Made by a program: the position numbers and the translations under genes. DNA of 33,892 nucleotides, taken from NCBI GenBank assembly GCA_005223125.1, contig NJBH01000038.1, positions 1 to 33,892 of the forward strand. Reading direction: 5' to 3'. Shown here piece by piece: positions 273 through 32,090 of the stretch. The stretch's first letter is position 1; each line of letters opens with the position of its first letter. This DNA is from Promethearchaeota archaeon Loki_b32. GTDB lineage: Archaea > Asgardarchaeota > Lokiarchaeia > Sigyniarchaeales > SOKP01. The notes under the pieces are model-generated. The model did no database searches. It was given only the letters and a program-made list of their open reading frames with translations, and was not told where the DNA came from.

Positions 273-416
273 ATGGAAACAATGTCGTTTTGTATTGGAA
301 TTGATCATTTTATTTATTGTAATAATTCAGTTTCCAGAAAAAATGACAATTCTAAAGAAACAACTACTACTGAGATAGATAATTCTAAACAATATGATGA
401 AGGTGAGAAAAAATAG
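273..416 (+). CDS. Possible 47-residue leader ORF
   Basis: ATG at 273 opens 47 codons ending at TAG 414-416. The product is Thr/Asn/Lys rich (contains SKETTTTEIDNSK) and resembles no family I know. Its stop overlaps the proposed ATA start of the flavin reductase in the arrangement ATAG, the same four-base overlap that ATGA gives in coupled genes. It also contains the AGGTG that would serve the next gene. It could be a leader peptide, or chance ORF in the 5' leader; an A-run frameshift joining it to the next frame is a third possibility. Confidence 0.3.
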   Translation: METMSFCIGIDHFIYCNNSVSRKNDNSKETTTTEIDNSKQYDEGEKK

Positions 417-982
417 GTAAGGTCAAAACAGGATGGAAATTACCGTTATTACCACTCCCAGTGTGTATATTAGGTGCTCATGTGAATGGCAAACCCAACT
501 TCAACACAATTATATGGTTTAACATGCTACATGATAATCCTCCCTTGATTGGTGTTGCAATGTCAAAAAAACATTATACTAATCCAGGTGTTAAGGAAAA
601 TAGAACATTTAGTATCAATATTCCCACTAGTGATATGGTTGTAGTTACAGATTATTGTGGTCTACACTCGGGCTCTAAAGTCGATAAATCCAAGGAATTT
701 GAGATTTTTTACGGTGATCTTGGGACAGCCCCGATGATCAAAGAATGTAGTGTAAATATCGAGTGCAAGCTGATCAATATTAAAGAATTCAAGAATACTG
801 AGCTATTTATAGGAGAAATTATTGAAATATATTCAGATGAGAAATATATTACAGATAAAAAACCAGATGTCAAGGAATTCGATTCATTTATTTGTTTAAT
901 GCCTAATGGCCCATACTGGAAAATAGGGGATTATTTAGCAGAGGCTTATGAAGTAGGAACAAGTTATAAACCTAAAAAATAG
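413..982 (+). CDS. Flavin reductase-like FMN-binding split-barrel protein (ATA start proposed)
   Basis: The product matches the flavin reductase / flavoredoxin family (COG1853): a PVCILGAHVNGKPNF block followed by an Asn-rich substrate loop (NTIIWFNMLHDNPPLIGVAM) and a YWKIGDYLAEAYEVG end. These cytoplasmic proteins bind FMN and pass electrons in anaerobes. A GTG at 461 would give 173 residues but cut inside the first conserved strand; the preceding in-frame WKLPLLPLP is also family-like. The frame is open back to 407 and has no ATG, GTG or TTG before 461. It has ATA at 413, seven bases after AGGTG (401-405), giving 189 residues, the usual family length. First gene of an operon with 1035-2328. 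Confidence 0.8.
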   Translation: MGKVKTGWKLPLLPLPVCILGAHVNGKPNFNTIIWFNMLHDNPPLIGVAMSKKHYTNPGVKENRTFSINIPTSDMVVVTDYCGLHSGSKVDKSKEFEIFYGDLGTAPMIKECSVNIECKLINIKEFKNTELFIGEIIEIYSDEKYITDKKPDVKEFDSFICLMPNGPYWKIGDYLAEAYEVGTSYKPKK

Positions 983-3635: not shown

Positions 3636-4805
3636 TTACTTATTAACTAATATTTCTTTGATTTTTTTGGCTCCTCCGTTATTAAAAAAATCCTTGATTT
3701 TATCAGAATACTCCGGTAAAAGTTGTAAGAACGGTAATATAGCACGAGAAAGAGAGCTAAATGCTTCATTTCCATCACCCATTATAAACATCTTATCTGG
3801 ACTCAAATTCTTAAAAATTTCAGGTAATATGTTAGTCAATTGAACTGCCAAGAATCTTTCATCTGCAGTACTCATTGCTTCAACCTGTTCTTTAAATCCT
3901 TCTGCCTGAGCGAGCATTTGTTGCTTAATATTCTCAGCTTCACCTTCTGCCTGAGCAATAAGTTTCCGTTTTATTTGTTGTGCTTCAGCATCCACTTCGA
4001 TTATTTTTTTCTGTCTTTCACCATCAGCCTCAATTATCTTACGCTCTCTTTCCTGTTCTGCGATAGCTATTTCTTTTTCTTTTCGCCTCAATTCAATCTC
4101 TCTTTCAACTAATTGTTCTTGAATACCGACCTCGTTCTTCACTTCTAATTCTCTAATTTTTGATTCTCTTTCAGCTTCAGCTTTAGCAATTCTCGCTTTT
4201 CTTAATTCTTCTGCTTGTTTAGTCGCTTCCATATTTTTCTTTAATTCCTGTTCTACAATAATGACTTCTAAAATTTCTAAAGATTCAATAACTATACCCC
4301 AATCAGCTGTTAATTCATGTAGATCCTTTTCAATAGGATCAATAATCTCTCTTCTTTCCCTTATGATCCTTTCCAATGGCATATTGGCACAGGTAGTACG
4401 AATTATCGCTTCTGCTGCACCTTTTAATATCTTTTCAACATAGTTTTCATCTCGCATGATCCATGAGACCGCACTGAATGCTTTTTCTGGATCAACAACT
4501 TTCCAAATTAGTAATCCCTCGATTTCAATGTTTTGGTACTCATTTGAAACTACCTGTTCATGTGCCTCAACAACAGTTTGGATACTGGTAGTTGGAATGA
4601 CGATATATTCATCTATCAATGGAAGAAGGAATAAACTTCCACCTAATCCTGCATGTTTTACTTTACCATTTCGTAAATGTATAACGAATTGATTGGTCTT
4701 AAACTTCCTATACCGAGCGGCAAGAAATATTACAAATAAGAATATGATTATACCTATTGTAACTCCGAGCCCTACAAACCAAGGATTTAATTCTTGAAAT
4801 AACAC
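3636..4805 (-). CDS. SPFH/band 7 flotillin-like membrane protein
   Basis: 389 residues: a single N-terminal membrane helix (about 8-30), then the SPFH domain (FVIHLRNGKVKHAGLGGSLF, IEIEGLLIWKVVDPEKAFSAV, about 40-200). A long Glu/Lys/Ala coiled coil (about 190-320) follows, with flotillin-like AQAEGEAE repeats, then a C-terminal oligomerisation region. Flotillins assemble membrane microdomains. The annotated start is GTG 14 bases after GGAGG, which is far. An in-frame ATA three codons earlier would sit five bases after it. Together with the NfeD-like gene upstream (5149-6120) it recalls the bacterial yuaF-floT pair. Confidence 0.85.
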   Translation of the reverse strand: MLFQELNPWFVGLGVTIGIIIFLFVIFLAARYRKFKTNQFVIHLRNGKVKHAGLGGSLFLLPLIDEYIVIPTTSIQTVVEAHEQVVSNEYQNIEIEGLLIWKVVDPEKAFSAVSWIMRDENYVEKILKGAAEAIIRTTCANMPLERIIRERREIIDPIEKDLHELTADWGIVIESLEILEVIIVEQELKKNMEATKQAEELRKARIAKAEAERESKIRELEVKNEVGIQEQLVEREIELRRKEKEIAIAEQERERKIIEADGERQKKIIEVDAEAQQIKRKLIAQAEGEAENIKQQMLAQAEGFKEQVEAMSTADERFLAVQLTNILPEIFKNLSPDKMFIMGDGNEAFSSLSRAILPFLQLLPEYSDKIKDFFNNGGAKKIKEILVNK

Positions 4806-18850: not shown

Positions 18851-18960
18851 TTTTATCGGTTTAATTACTTTTGATTCTCTTTTTTTCGCTTTTTCTACAA
18901 AAATTAGTTAAAATTGATCATTTTGGACATCAAAGTAAAGATTTAAATTTTTTGTCGTTA
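18851..18960 (+). repeat. Promoter/leader repeat, copy A
   Basis: The stretch 18870-18960, from TTTGATTCTCT through CTACAAAAATTAGTTAAAA to AGATTTAAATTTTTTGTCG, recurs at 21061-21150 with only scattered differences. It ends about 90 bases before the ATA-start gene at 19052. It contains the TATA-like TTTAAATT. The flanking 18634-18850 and 18961-19039 hold nothing else recognisable. Confidence 0.75.
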
Positions 18961-19051
18961 AAATAAGGATATATGAGATAAGATCAAATTCAGAAATATA
19001 CTATTTATTTTATTTCATATTTGAAAAGATTCAATAATAAGGTGTTAAAAA

Positions 19052-19222
19052 ATATCTCAAGAAAAAAATCGTTTAAAAGTAAAAGTTAAAGATATTGAAA
19101 TAGAAATTGAGGGAACTGAATCGTTCATTAATGATAAAATTAAGGAAAGTAAAGCGATTGCTGTTCTCTTAACGGGCTTTTCAAAAGACTTATCCCAAAA
19201 ACAGCAAGAAGACAATAAATAA
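19052..19222 (+). CDS. 56-residue acidic protein with ATA start
   Basis: The frame ending at TAA 19220-19222 encodes NRLKVKVKDIEIEIEGTESF then INDKIKESKAIAVLLTGF. It resembles the VxDIEIEIEG-EEFV motif that opens or ends several archaeal proteins of unknown role. The frame has a stop at 19046 and no ATG, GTG or TTG near the start. ATA at 19052 is seven bases after AGGTG (19040-19044) and gives SQEKNRLKV after the first residue. The GTG at 19042 is in another frame that ends after 15 codons. Either AUA is the start or one base was gained in the A7 run at 19062-19068. It lies just downstream of the copy A leader repeat. Confidence 0.5.
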   Translation: MSQEKNRLKVKVKDIEIEIEGTESFINDKIKESKAIAVLLTGFSKDLSQKQQEDNK

Positions 19223-21024: not shown

Positions 21025-21150
21025 GTAAAGTAGATTTAAATTTTTTGTCGGTTAGGATCATTTGATTCTCTCTTTTTTCCCTTTTTCTACAAAAATTAGT
21101 TAAAATTGATTATTTTCGACATTGAAATAAAGATTTAAATTTTGTCGGTA
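21025..21150 (+). repeat. Promoter/leader repeat, copy B
   Basis: 21061-21150 matches copy A (18870-18960), including the shared block CTACAAAAATTAGTTAAAA. It is bracketed by two copies of the tail motif AGATTTAAATTTTTTGTCGG (21032-21051, and 21131-21149 shortened by two T). It ends about 90 bases before the ATA start of the GTPase, the same distance as copy A to the gene at 19052. Confidence 0.75.
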
Positions 21151-21241
21151 AGATTATTATATAGAAGAGTTTATAGAAAGATCTATAAGAATAATATTTT
21201 AGCTGAATTACTGAATGCACTCAAAACAAAAGGTGTAAGAA

Positions 21242-21769
21242 ATAAGCAAGGAATTAATCTTAAAAATTTGTCTTTTTGGAGATAGAAATGTTGGAAAAAC
21301 TTCATTAACCCAAGCAGGTATTCAAAAAAAGGAAGTAAAGCCACCTGTATGCATAGATCTTGCGATTAAAAATTTAACAATAAAATCTTCTAAAATAATA
21401 CTTCAAATTTGGAATCTTAGAAGTGACCCTCAGTTTCAATTTATTTTCCCCATTTTTATGAGGGGCGTATCAGGAGGTATTTTTATGTATGATATCACTA
21501 ATTATTCCAGTTTAAGGAATATAGAAGATTGGTTAACATTATTCAAAGACAATTTATCTAATGATAAAAAGAAAATTCCTCTATTAATGGTTGGTGGAAA
21601 GTTAGACCTCCATAAAGAAAGAGTAATATCCAGAAAATACGCTAAGAAAATCTCAAAAAAATATAAAATCGTTAAATACTTCGAATGTTCCTCTAAAACT
21701 GGAGAAAATGTTGATAAGATTTTTGAATTTTTAACGAGATCAATACTGAAAGTTGAAAGTTATTCTTAG
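21242..21769 (+). CDS. Ras-like small GTPase (Asgard type), ATA start, degenerate switches
   Basis: 175 residues from ATA at 21242, six bases after AGGTG (21231-21235), giving SKELILKICLFGD as in Asgard Ras-family proteins. G1 is GDRNVGKTS (13-21), G4 is GGKLD (118-122, the Asgard variant of NKxD) and G5 is CSSKTG (149-154). A GTG/ATG/TTG search of the frame back to the stop at 21236 finds none before the Met at 21458, which would delete the P-loop. Switch I lacks the conserved Thr, and G3 DxxG is Asn58-Leu-Arg-Ser, so normal GTP hydrolysis is unlikely. It may be a nucleotide-binding decoy, a scaffold or an early pseudogene. Asgard genomes hold many such GTPases. Confidence 0.75.
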   Translation: MSKELILKICLFGDRNVGKTSLTQAGIQKKEVKPPVCIDLAIKNLTIKSSKIILQIWNLRSDPQFQFIFPIFMRGVSGGIFMYDITNYSSLRNIEDWLTLFKDNLSNDKKKIPLLMVGGKLDLHKERVISRKYAKKISKKYKIVKYFECSSKTGENVDKIFEFLTRSILKVESYS

Positions 21770-31958: not shown

Positions 31959-32090
31959 TTAATCCTTTTCTTTCATTTCTTTTCCACAGCATATGAGAGT
32001 AGGACATTTTGGATCTGCTACAGGCTTTTTGATAACTTTTTCCTCAGCCCCACACATCTCACAAACATATGTTTTGCCTTCAATAACCAT
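31959..32090 (-). CDS. Desulforedoxin-like small protein
   Basis: 43 residues with the Cys pattern CEMCGAEEKV ... KCP ... LICCGKEM. YxCxxCG and CCGxxM are the signature of the desulforedoxin / desulfoferrodoxin N-terminal domain, where four Cys hold one iron. It probably carries electrons in the cytoplasm or defends against oxygen. A perfect GAGGTG lies six bases before the ATG. Too short for most gene callers. Confidence 0.7.
   Translation of the reverse strand: MVIEGKTYVCEMCGAEEKVIKKPVADPKCPTLICCGKEMKEKD

Follow-up and report, generated by a model that had tools for sequence, protein, structure and literature searches.

Mitochondria initiate at AUA and AUU with methionine, and in many of them AUA has also been reassigned to Met. 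In prokaryotes, starts at AUU, AUA or AUC (collectively AUH, or ATH in DNA) are treated as near-absent. A review gives AUG, GUG, and UUG as the archaeal start codons (PMC7531240). AUU and CUG starts are rare in bacteria and archaea, one of 61,358 ancestral AUG starts having switched to AUU (Belinky et al. 2017, PMC5622118). The gene for E. coli IF3, infC, starts with AUU and is under autocontrol (Butler et al. 1987, cited in PMC9845219), and eukaryotic eIF1 is autoregulated via the poor context of its AUG (Ivanov et al. 2010, cited in PMC9845219). The archaeal factor aIF1 destabilises non-AUG initiation complexes (PMC6237735). For an Asgard archaeon, a single ATT start, called rare, was proposed for the tubulin gene atubA of Kariarchaeaceae (PMC13394414). 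The locus described here carries three genes that appear to start with AUA, and belongs to a lineage in which AUU and AUC seem to serve as starts as well.

The window, i.e., the whole stretch of DNA that was analysed (33,892 nucleotides), is all of contig C65 of a Lokiarchaeal MAG, referred to as G000 (4.13 Mb, 71 contigs, 30% GC, 95.5% complete, 4.6% contamination). Orthologs of its flavin reductase place the MAG in Candidatus Lokiarchaeota. For the genome-wide statistics 2.67 Mb of G000 was sampled (the window plus 2.64 Mb outside it), and 1,773 coding frames were selected from it. A direct search of the MAG for 16S rRNA gave no match. Hence, the anti-Shine–Dalgarno sequence was assumed to be the archaeal consensus, and any stretch of 5 nt or more that matched GGAGGTGATC was scored as a Shine–Dalgarno (SD). 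Standard starts (the ATG/GTG/TTG class) are referred to as NTG. Later relatives were tested by short start-site patterns only. The features of the three window genes are collected in Table 1.

Table 1. Features of the window genes with putative AUA starts
Feature	Position	Strand	Evidence
SD (AGGTG) of flavin reductase gene	401..405	+	Sequence; GGTGA kept in L200-L209
Putative AUA start codon of flavin reductase	413..415	+	ATA in 9/10 Lokiarchaeal orthologs, ATG in one (L203); in-frame TGA 404-406
Flavin reductase-like CDS, 189 aa + stop	413..982	+	PF01613, E 7.7e-24
SD (AGGTG) of small ORF	19040..19044	+	Sequence
Putative AUA start codon of small ORF; in-frame TAA one codon upstream	19052..19054	+	Identical in relative G017 (L220)
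Small ORF, 56 aa	19052..19222	+	No ATG/GTG/TTG in entire ORF; no family match
SD (AGGTG) of GTPase gene	21231..21235	+	Sequence; AGGTG kept in same-genus orthologs, flanks diverged, spacer 6 or 7 nt
In-frame TAA between SD and ATA	21236..21238	+	Sequence; TAA also in second genomic copy L160
Putative AUA start codon of small GTPase	21242..21244	+	ATA/ATT in same-genus orthologs; ATC/ATA in second GTPase subfamily
Ras-family small GTPase CDS, 175 aa + stop	21242..21769	+	PF00071, E 5.2e-31, residues 8-169

An earlier note on this DNA had claimed that the small GTPase gene opens with ATA six nucleotides after AGGTG, and that ATG, GTG, and TTG are absent ahead of its P-loop. Both points were confirmed, the frame being TAA (stop) followed by GAA ATA AGC. 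The protein belongs to the Ras family, the Pfam Ras domain spanning most of its length. Because of the in-frame TAA, this gene can start neither at the GTG within AGGTG nor at an in-frame ATG farther upstream. The note had allowed that ATG in close relatives would speak against AUA; the intact close homologs have ATA, ATT or, once, TTT at this codon. In the ortholog L143, where TTT replaced ATT, a change in the SD has created an in-frame ATG a few codons farther upstream, as expected if ATH had been the start of the gene. A second GTPase subfamily, examined with a pattern that permitted any NTN, has ATA or ATC in 9/9 genomes.

Two further copies of the GTPase gene were seen in G000. One (L160, contig C18:124-648, − strand) is 92% identical and has the same AGGTG-TAA-GAA-ATA leader; the other, on C19, is partial and contains a stop. 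It may also be noted that an AT-rich repeat of ~80 nt occurs in the window at 18886-18965 and 21078-21154, and in L018 near 747-809, 1546-1617, 1938-2004, and 4699-4775. Two AUA genes and the second GTPase copy each follow it at a distance of ~90 nt. Only six copies are present in the sampled genome, and the repeat may represent a promoter common to these genes or a segment that was duplicated.

The same arrangement had been reported for a flavin reductase-like gene and a small ORF, in both cases as AGGTG-N7-ATA, and the sequence agreed. The flavin reductase frame reads TGA (stop) followed by GAA AAA ATA GGT, without ATG, GTG or TTG ahead of the conserved part. That of the small ORF reads TAA (stop) followed by AAA ATA TCT, and none of the three codons occurs among all its 56 codons. 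The small ORF gave no match in a Pfam search. Its homolog, found in 1/64 other family genomes (G017/L220), has an in-frame 6-nt deletion inside the ORF and retains the ATA. This is the weakest of the three cases.

The flavin reductase ATA persists across two genera, and the orthologs come from independent MAGs, of which one is a single-contig chromosome (CP070831). Sequencing error, which the note had named as a possible undoing of its claim, is therefore excluded for this gene. More generally, ATA, ATT, and ATC might have been produced from ATG by sequencing or assembly errors, the genome being a MAG with some contamination. However, the same AUH codons are present in independent MAGs of different projects, including the chromosome CP070831.1, and errors would not cluster at SD-spaced start positions. 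We consider such an origin practically inconceivable.

The genes with standard starts at 1408 and 31373 (+) and at 32090, 32267, and 5141 (−) have AGGTG at the spacing reported for them earlier. It had also been argued that three coincidences in one window are unlikely by chance. As a bare motif count this did not hold: the window has 4 occurrences of AGGTG-N5-8-ATA where 2.9 are expected, and 4 was reached in 31/100 shuffles, which is not significant alone. What stood is that at 3/4 of these sites a frame begins directly, and that this frame offers no other start. Unlike the motif count in the window, the AUH signal is far beyond chance in the genome-wide and comparative tests described below.

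Two candidate sites were rejected. At position 1909 of the window, in a MarR-family regulator (1879-2328), the codon varies among ATG, ATT, ATC, and ATA. An in-frame ATG ten codons upstream (1879) is kept in every ortholog; hence, the variation is Met/Ile inside the protein. A GGAGG near 1909 encodes Gly-Gly, which calls for caution in calling starts from an SD. The other candidate, a match in L076/L201/L204 (INPDGTTTE), has an in-frame TTG 9 nt upstream.

The genome-wide test was confined to frames lacking any standard start within 12 codons. At start-codon spacing (offsets 2-6), an SD of 5 nt or more preceded 29/613 AUH codons as against 55/3,561 other codons. Permutation within strata defined by stop codon and by distance from the frame opening gave an expectation of 15.4 AUH codons with an SD, and 0/5,000 permutations reached the observed 29 (offsets 2-6). 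At one exact offset (offset 4) an SD was found for ATA in 6/207, ATT in 10/323, and ATC in 2/82, compared with 11/3,503 for other codons and 32/1,223 for first ATGs. The SD profiles peaked at the same offset for ATA (2.9%), ATT (3.1%), ATC (2.4%), and ATG (2.6%), the value for other codons being 0.31%. Thus ATA follows an SD more often than non-start codons do across the genome, the outcome on which the earlier claim had been made to depend. Among the SD-supported AUH cases, ATT was more frequent than ATA, and ATA more than ATC. When 250 kb of Bacillus phage G, which matches G000 in AT-richness (30% GC) and has strong SDs, was put through the same pipeline, an SD preceded AUH in 0/33 cases, versus 56/150 for ATG. 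Controls with an M. jannaschii plasmid and E. coli were too small to inform alone.

Where the SD is GGTGA and its own TGA is an in-frame stop, the codon at +6 was AUH in 15/44 and NTG in 11/44 long frames. AUH accounts for 34% at +6; elsewhere its share is 7-17%, and where an SD is lacking it is 8.5% (p about 1e-5). From these counts, we estimate that AUH makes up perhaps 15-35% of the SD-led starts in G000.

Translation from AUH was then compared with protein family models. DJ-1/PfpI from ATT aligns with TIGR01382 over residues 2-167 (model 1-169). Residue 4 of DtdA from ATC falls on position 3 of NF003072, residue 3 of DapL from ATT on position 2 of NF006756, residue 1 of the TIGR00284 protein from ATT on position 1, and residue 3 of a haloalkane dehalogenase, from the second of two ATTs, on position 2 of PRK00870. 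For all five proteins the model extends to within ~1 residue of the N-terminus so obtained. In the three window genes, DJ-1, DtdA, MGMT, DapL, aIF1, and others, the in-frame stretch that leads from the preceding stop to the conserved domain contains no standard start.

In the orthologs, AUH is exchanged for AUG or UUG at the same codon. With patterns equally open to ATG, GTG, TTG, and ATH, the DtdA start site had ATH in 26, ATG in 5, TTG in 1, and another codon in 3 cases; that of DapL, within the genus, had ATH in 8, ATG in 4, and TTT in 1. The flavin reductase shows one such exchange (L203). Nothing speaks more strongly for AUH as a start codon, rather than an Ile codon inside the protein, than this alternation with AUG at a single position in DtdA and DapL.

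These data bear on the possibility that translation really begins at the GTG of AGGTG, which is in frame when the spacer is 6, the ATH being a conserved Ile four residues in. An open, in-frame GTG of this kind is present in L142, L144-L146, L162, L147, L167, L154, L169, L151, and most flavin reductase orthologs, which could start there, and ATG is rare at the GTPase and flavin reductase sites. Where the frame is open upstream, a conserved Ile would also explain ATH with little ATG in these families. In the three window genes, however, the idea is refuted by a stop or a frame difference between GTG and ATA. Stops also intervene in L160, L164, L150, L168, L170, and L038, and the spacer shifts the frame in L163 and L201. 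The ATH excess at +6 after GGTGA arises in spite of the in-frame TGA, and DtdA and DapL have ATG or TTG at the codon in question. We therefore regard a general GTG start as very improbable.

A further alternative is that AUA, or AUH, has been reassigned to methionine in the lineage, which would agree with ATA acting like a start. Opposite internal ATA, however, orthologs have ATA, ATT or ATC in 73% of the aligned columns and ATG in 3.7%, and ATT and ATC act as starts too. Judged from these alignments AUA is still isoleucine in elongation, and reassignment is hardly credible. The single recognised initiator-like tRNA has the anticodon CAU (L068, stitched position 102824, + strand, contig C48 of G000). 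A second one with another anticodon was not found in 65% of the genome. In the recognised tRNA (AGCGGG..., GGG-CTCATAA) an intron apparently follows the anticodon, and the 5′ half alone was resolved. ARAGORN found few tRNAs, many of those of G000 escaping it, probably owing to introns.

ATG was found at the expected start of the seven housekeeping genes checked (aIF1A, uS12, uL2, aEF1A, aIF2-gamma, aIF5B, and the thermosome). By the same reading of the sequences, aIF1 appears to be the exception among the housekeeping genes tested. Its gene (L213, contig C48:127289-127600, − strand) encodes the only SUI1/aIF1 homolog found in G000, matches PF01253 (E 1e-17), and aligns with the solved aIF1 4mo0 (E 5e-25). 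The frame in G000 reads TAA GAG AGT ATT AAA AAC GAC GAC ATT TGT CCT; ATG, GTG, and TTG are absent until deep in the domain, and the N-terminal cysteine knuckle is conserved. The SD is weak (GTGAT, 8 nt from ATT). With a pattern open to ATG, GTG, TTG, and ATH, the start codon was ATT in 15/15 same-genus genomes with a match. Outside the genus, ATT was found in two g6 genomes, and ATC and ATT in g5; second copies have ATT or ATA. Among the matches listed from the relatives' genomes, none had ATG, to which the pattern was open. The stop-to-stop frame has 2-4 codons ahead of ATT in 12 genus genomes; the identity of these codons was read in G000 alone, the relatives being known by start site and frame length. 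In G012 (CP070831.1), aIF1 residues 1-25 match 1032005-1032079 and residues 20-104 match 1385113-1385367, far apart; this could be a rearrangement, a split gene or an assembly fault.

Taken at the level of sequence, AUH stands at the presumed start position with an SD and no alternative start, in conserved genes, and alternates with AUG in relatives. The suggestion that this lineage may initiate at AUA is supported, with the amendment that AUA does not seem special, AUU and AUC appearing to act as starts too. We think it highly probable that in this Lokiarchaeal genus and family the translation machinery takes AUH starts given an upstream SD, with methionine insertion and self-limiting aIF1 as predicted properties. 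An SD of the GGTGA/GAGGTG type ~6-8 nt upstream would allow AUU, AUA, and AUC to be accepted. The initiator tRNA (CAU) would pair with A1 and U2 of AUH, the third-base mismatch (C34 opposite A, U or C) would be tolerated on the SD-anchored 30S, and methionine would be inserted. Since aIF1 destabilises non-AUG complexes and its own gene has a conserved AUU, aIF1 would limit its own synthesis, a negative feedback like that of infC in bacteria. The output of the other AUH genes would in turn vary with the amount of aIF1, as that of infC does with IF3. That AUU-started aIF1 throttles itself while AUH genes (small GTPases, metabolic and stress enzymes) track its activity as a fidelity-controlled regulon is a proposal that, in our judgement, could go either way.

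The same AUH initiation, minus the feedback loop, could have arisen neutrally through AT-biased mutation; it would then have no regulatory role, and the AUU of aIF1 would be incidental. The low GC content of the genome, the varied metabolic genes with AUH starts, and the order ATT, ATA, ATC, which tracks codon abundance, are in keeping with this. Yet none of the seven housekeeping genes checked has AUH, in aIF1 it is fixed, and the flavin reductase ATA is kept across two genera where drift should yield ATT, ATC, and ATG. Neutrality is thus a serious possibility, though one we somewhat doubt.

Wide use of AUH starts in an Asgard family would change genome annotation, as callers limited to ATG, GTG, and TTG would clip or lose small GTPases and other AUH genes. 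Lokiarchaea being relatives of the archaeal ancestor of eukaryotes, AUH initiation under aIF1 control would offer a testable account of how start-codon stringency is set there. No report of widespread AUH starts or of an AUU-started aIF1 in Asgard archaea was found in the open-access literature (most subscription journals and preprints lay outside this scope).

Compared with the known systems, AUH initiation here is like that of mitochondria, presumably with methionine, but internal AUA stays Ile. As in the survey of Belinky et al., AUH starts exist in prokaryotes; here they would account for a far from negligible part of the SD-led starts. The case resembles atubA in being an Asgard archaeon with ATT behind a likely RBS and an N-terminus restored by homology, but atubA is one gene, whereas the Lokiarchaeal AUH is widely spread within a family and includes AUA and AUC. 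Like E. coli infC, the aIF1 gene encodes a start-codon fidelity factor, has a conserved AUU start, and relies on SD-led initiation. However, aIF1 matches SUI1 and is no homolog of IF3, so it may work like infC without being a member of that type. Archaeal Met-tRNAi is moreover not formylated, many other genes of G000 use AUH too, and the aIF1 feedback is predicted. To eIF1, aIF1 is related by homology and by a suboptimal start of its own, the difference being that eukaryotes use an AUG in poor context found by scanning, whereas aIF1 departs from AUG in the codon, which is AUU. Functionally, an aIF1 with such a start would connect the autocontrol of IF3 in bacteria with the autoregulation of eIF1 in eukaryotes, and its regulon, if true, would be the archaeal counterpart of IF3/infC control, built on a homolog of eIF1 with a related autoregulatory logic.
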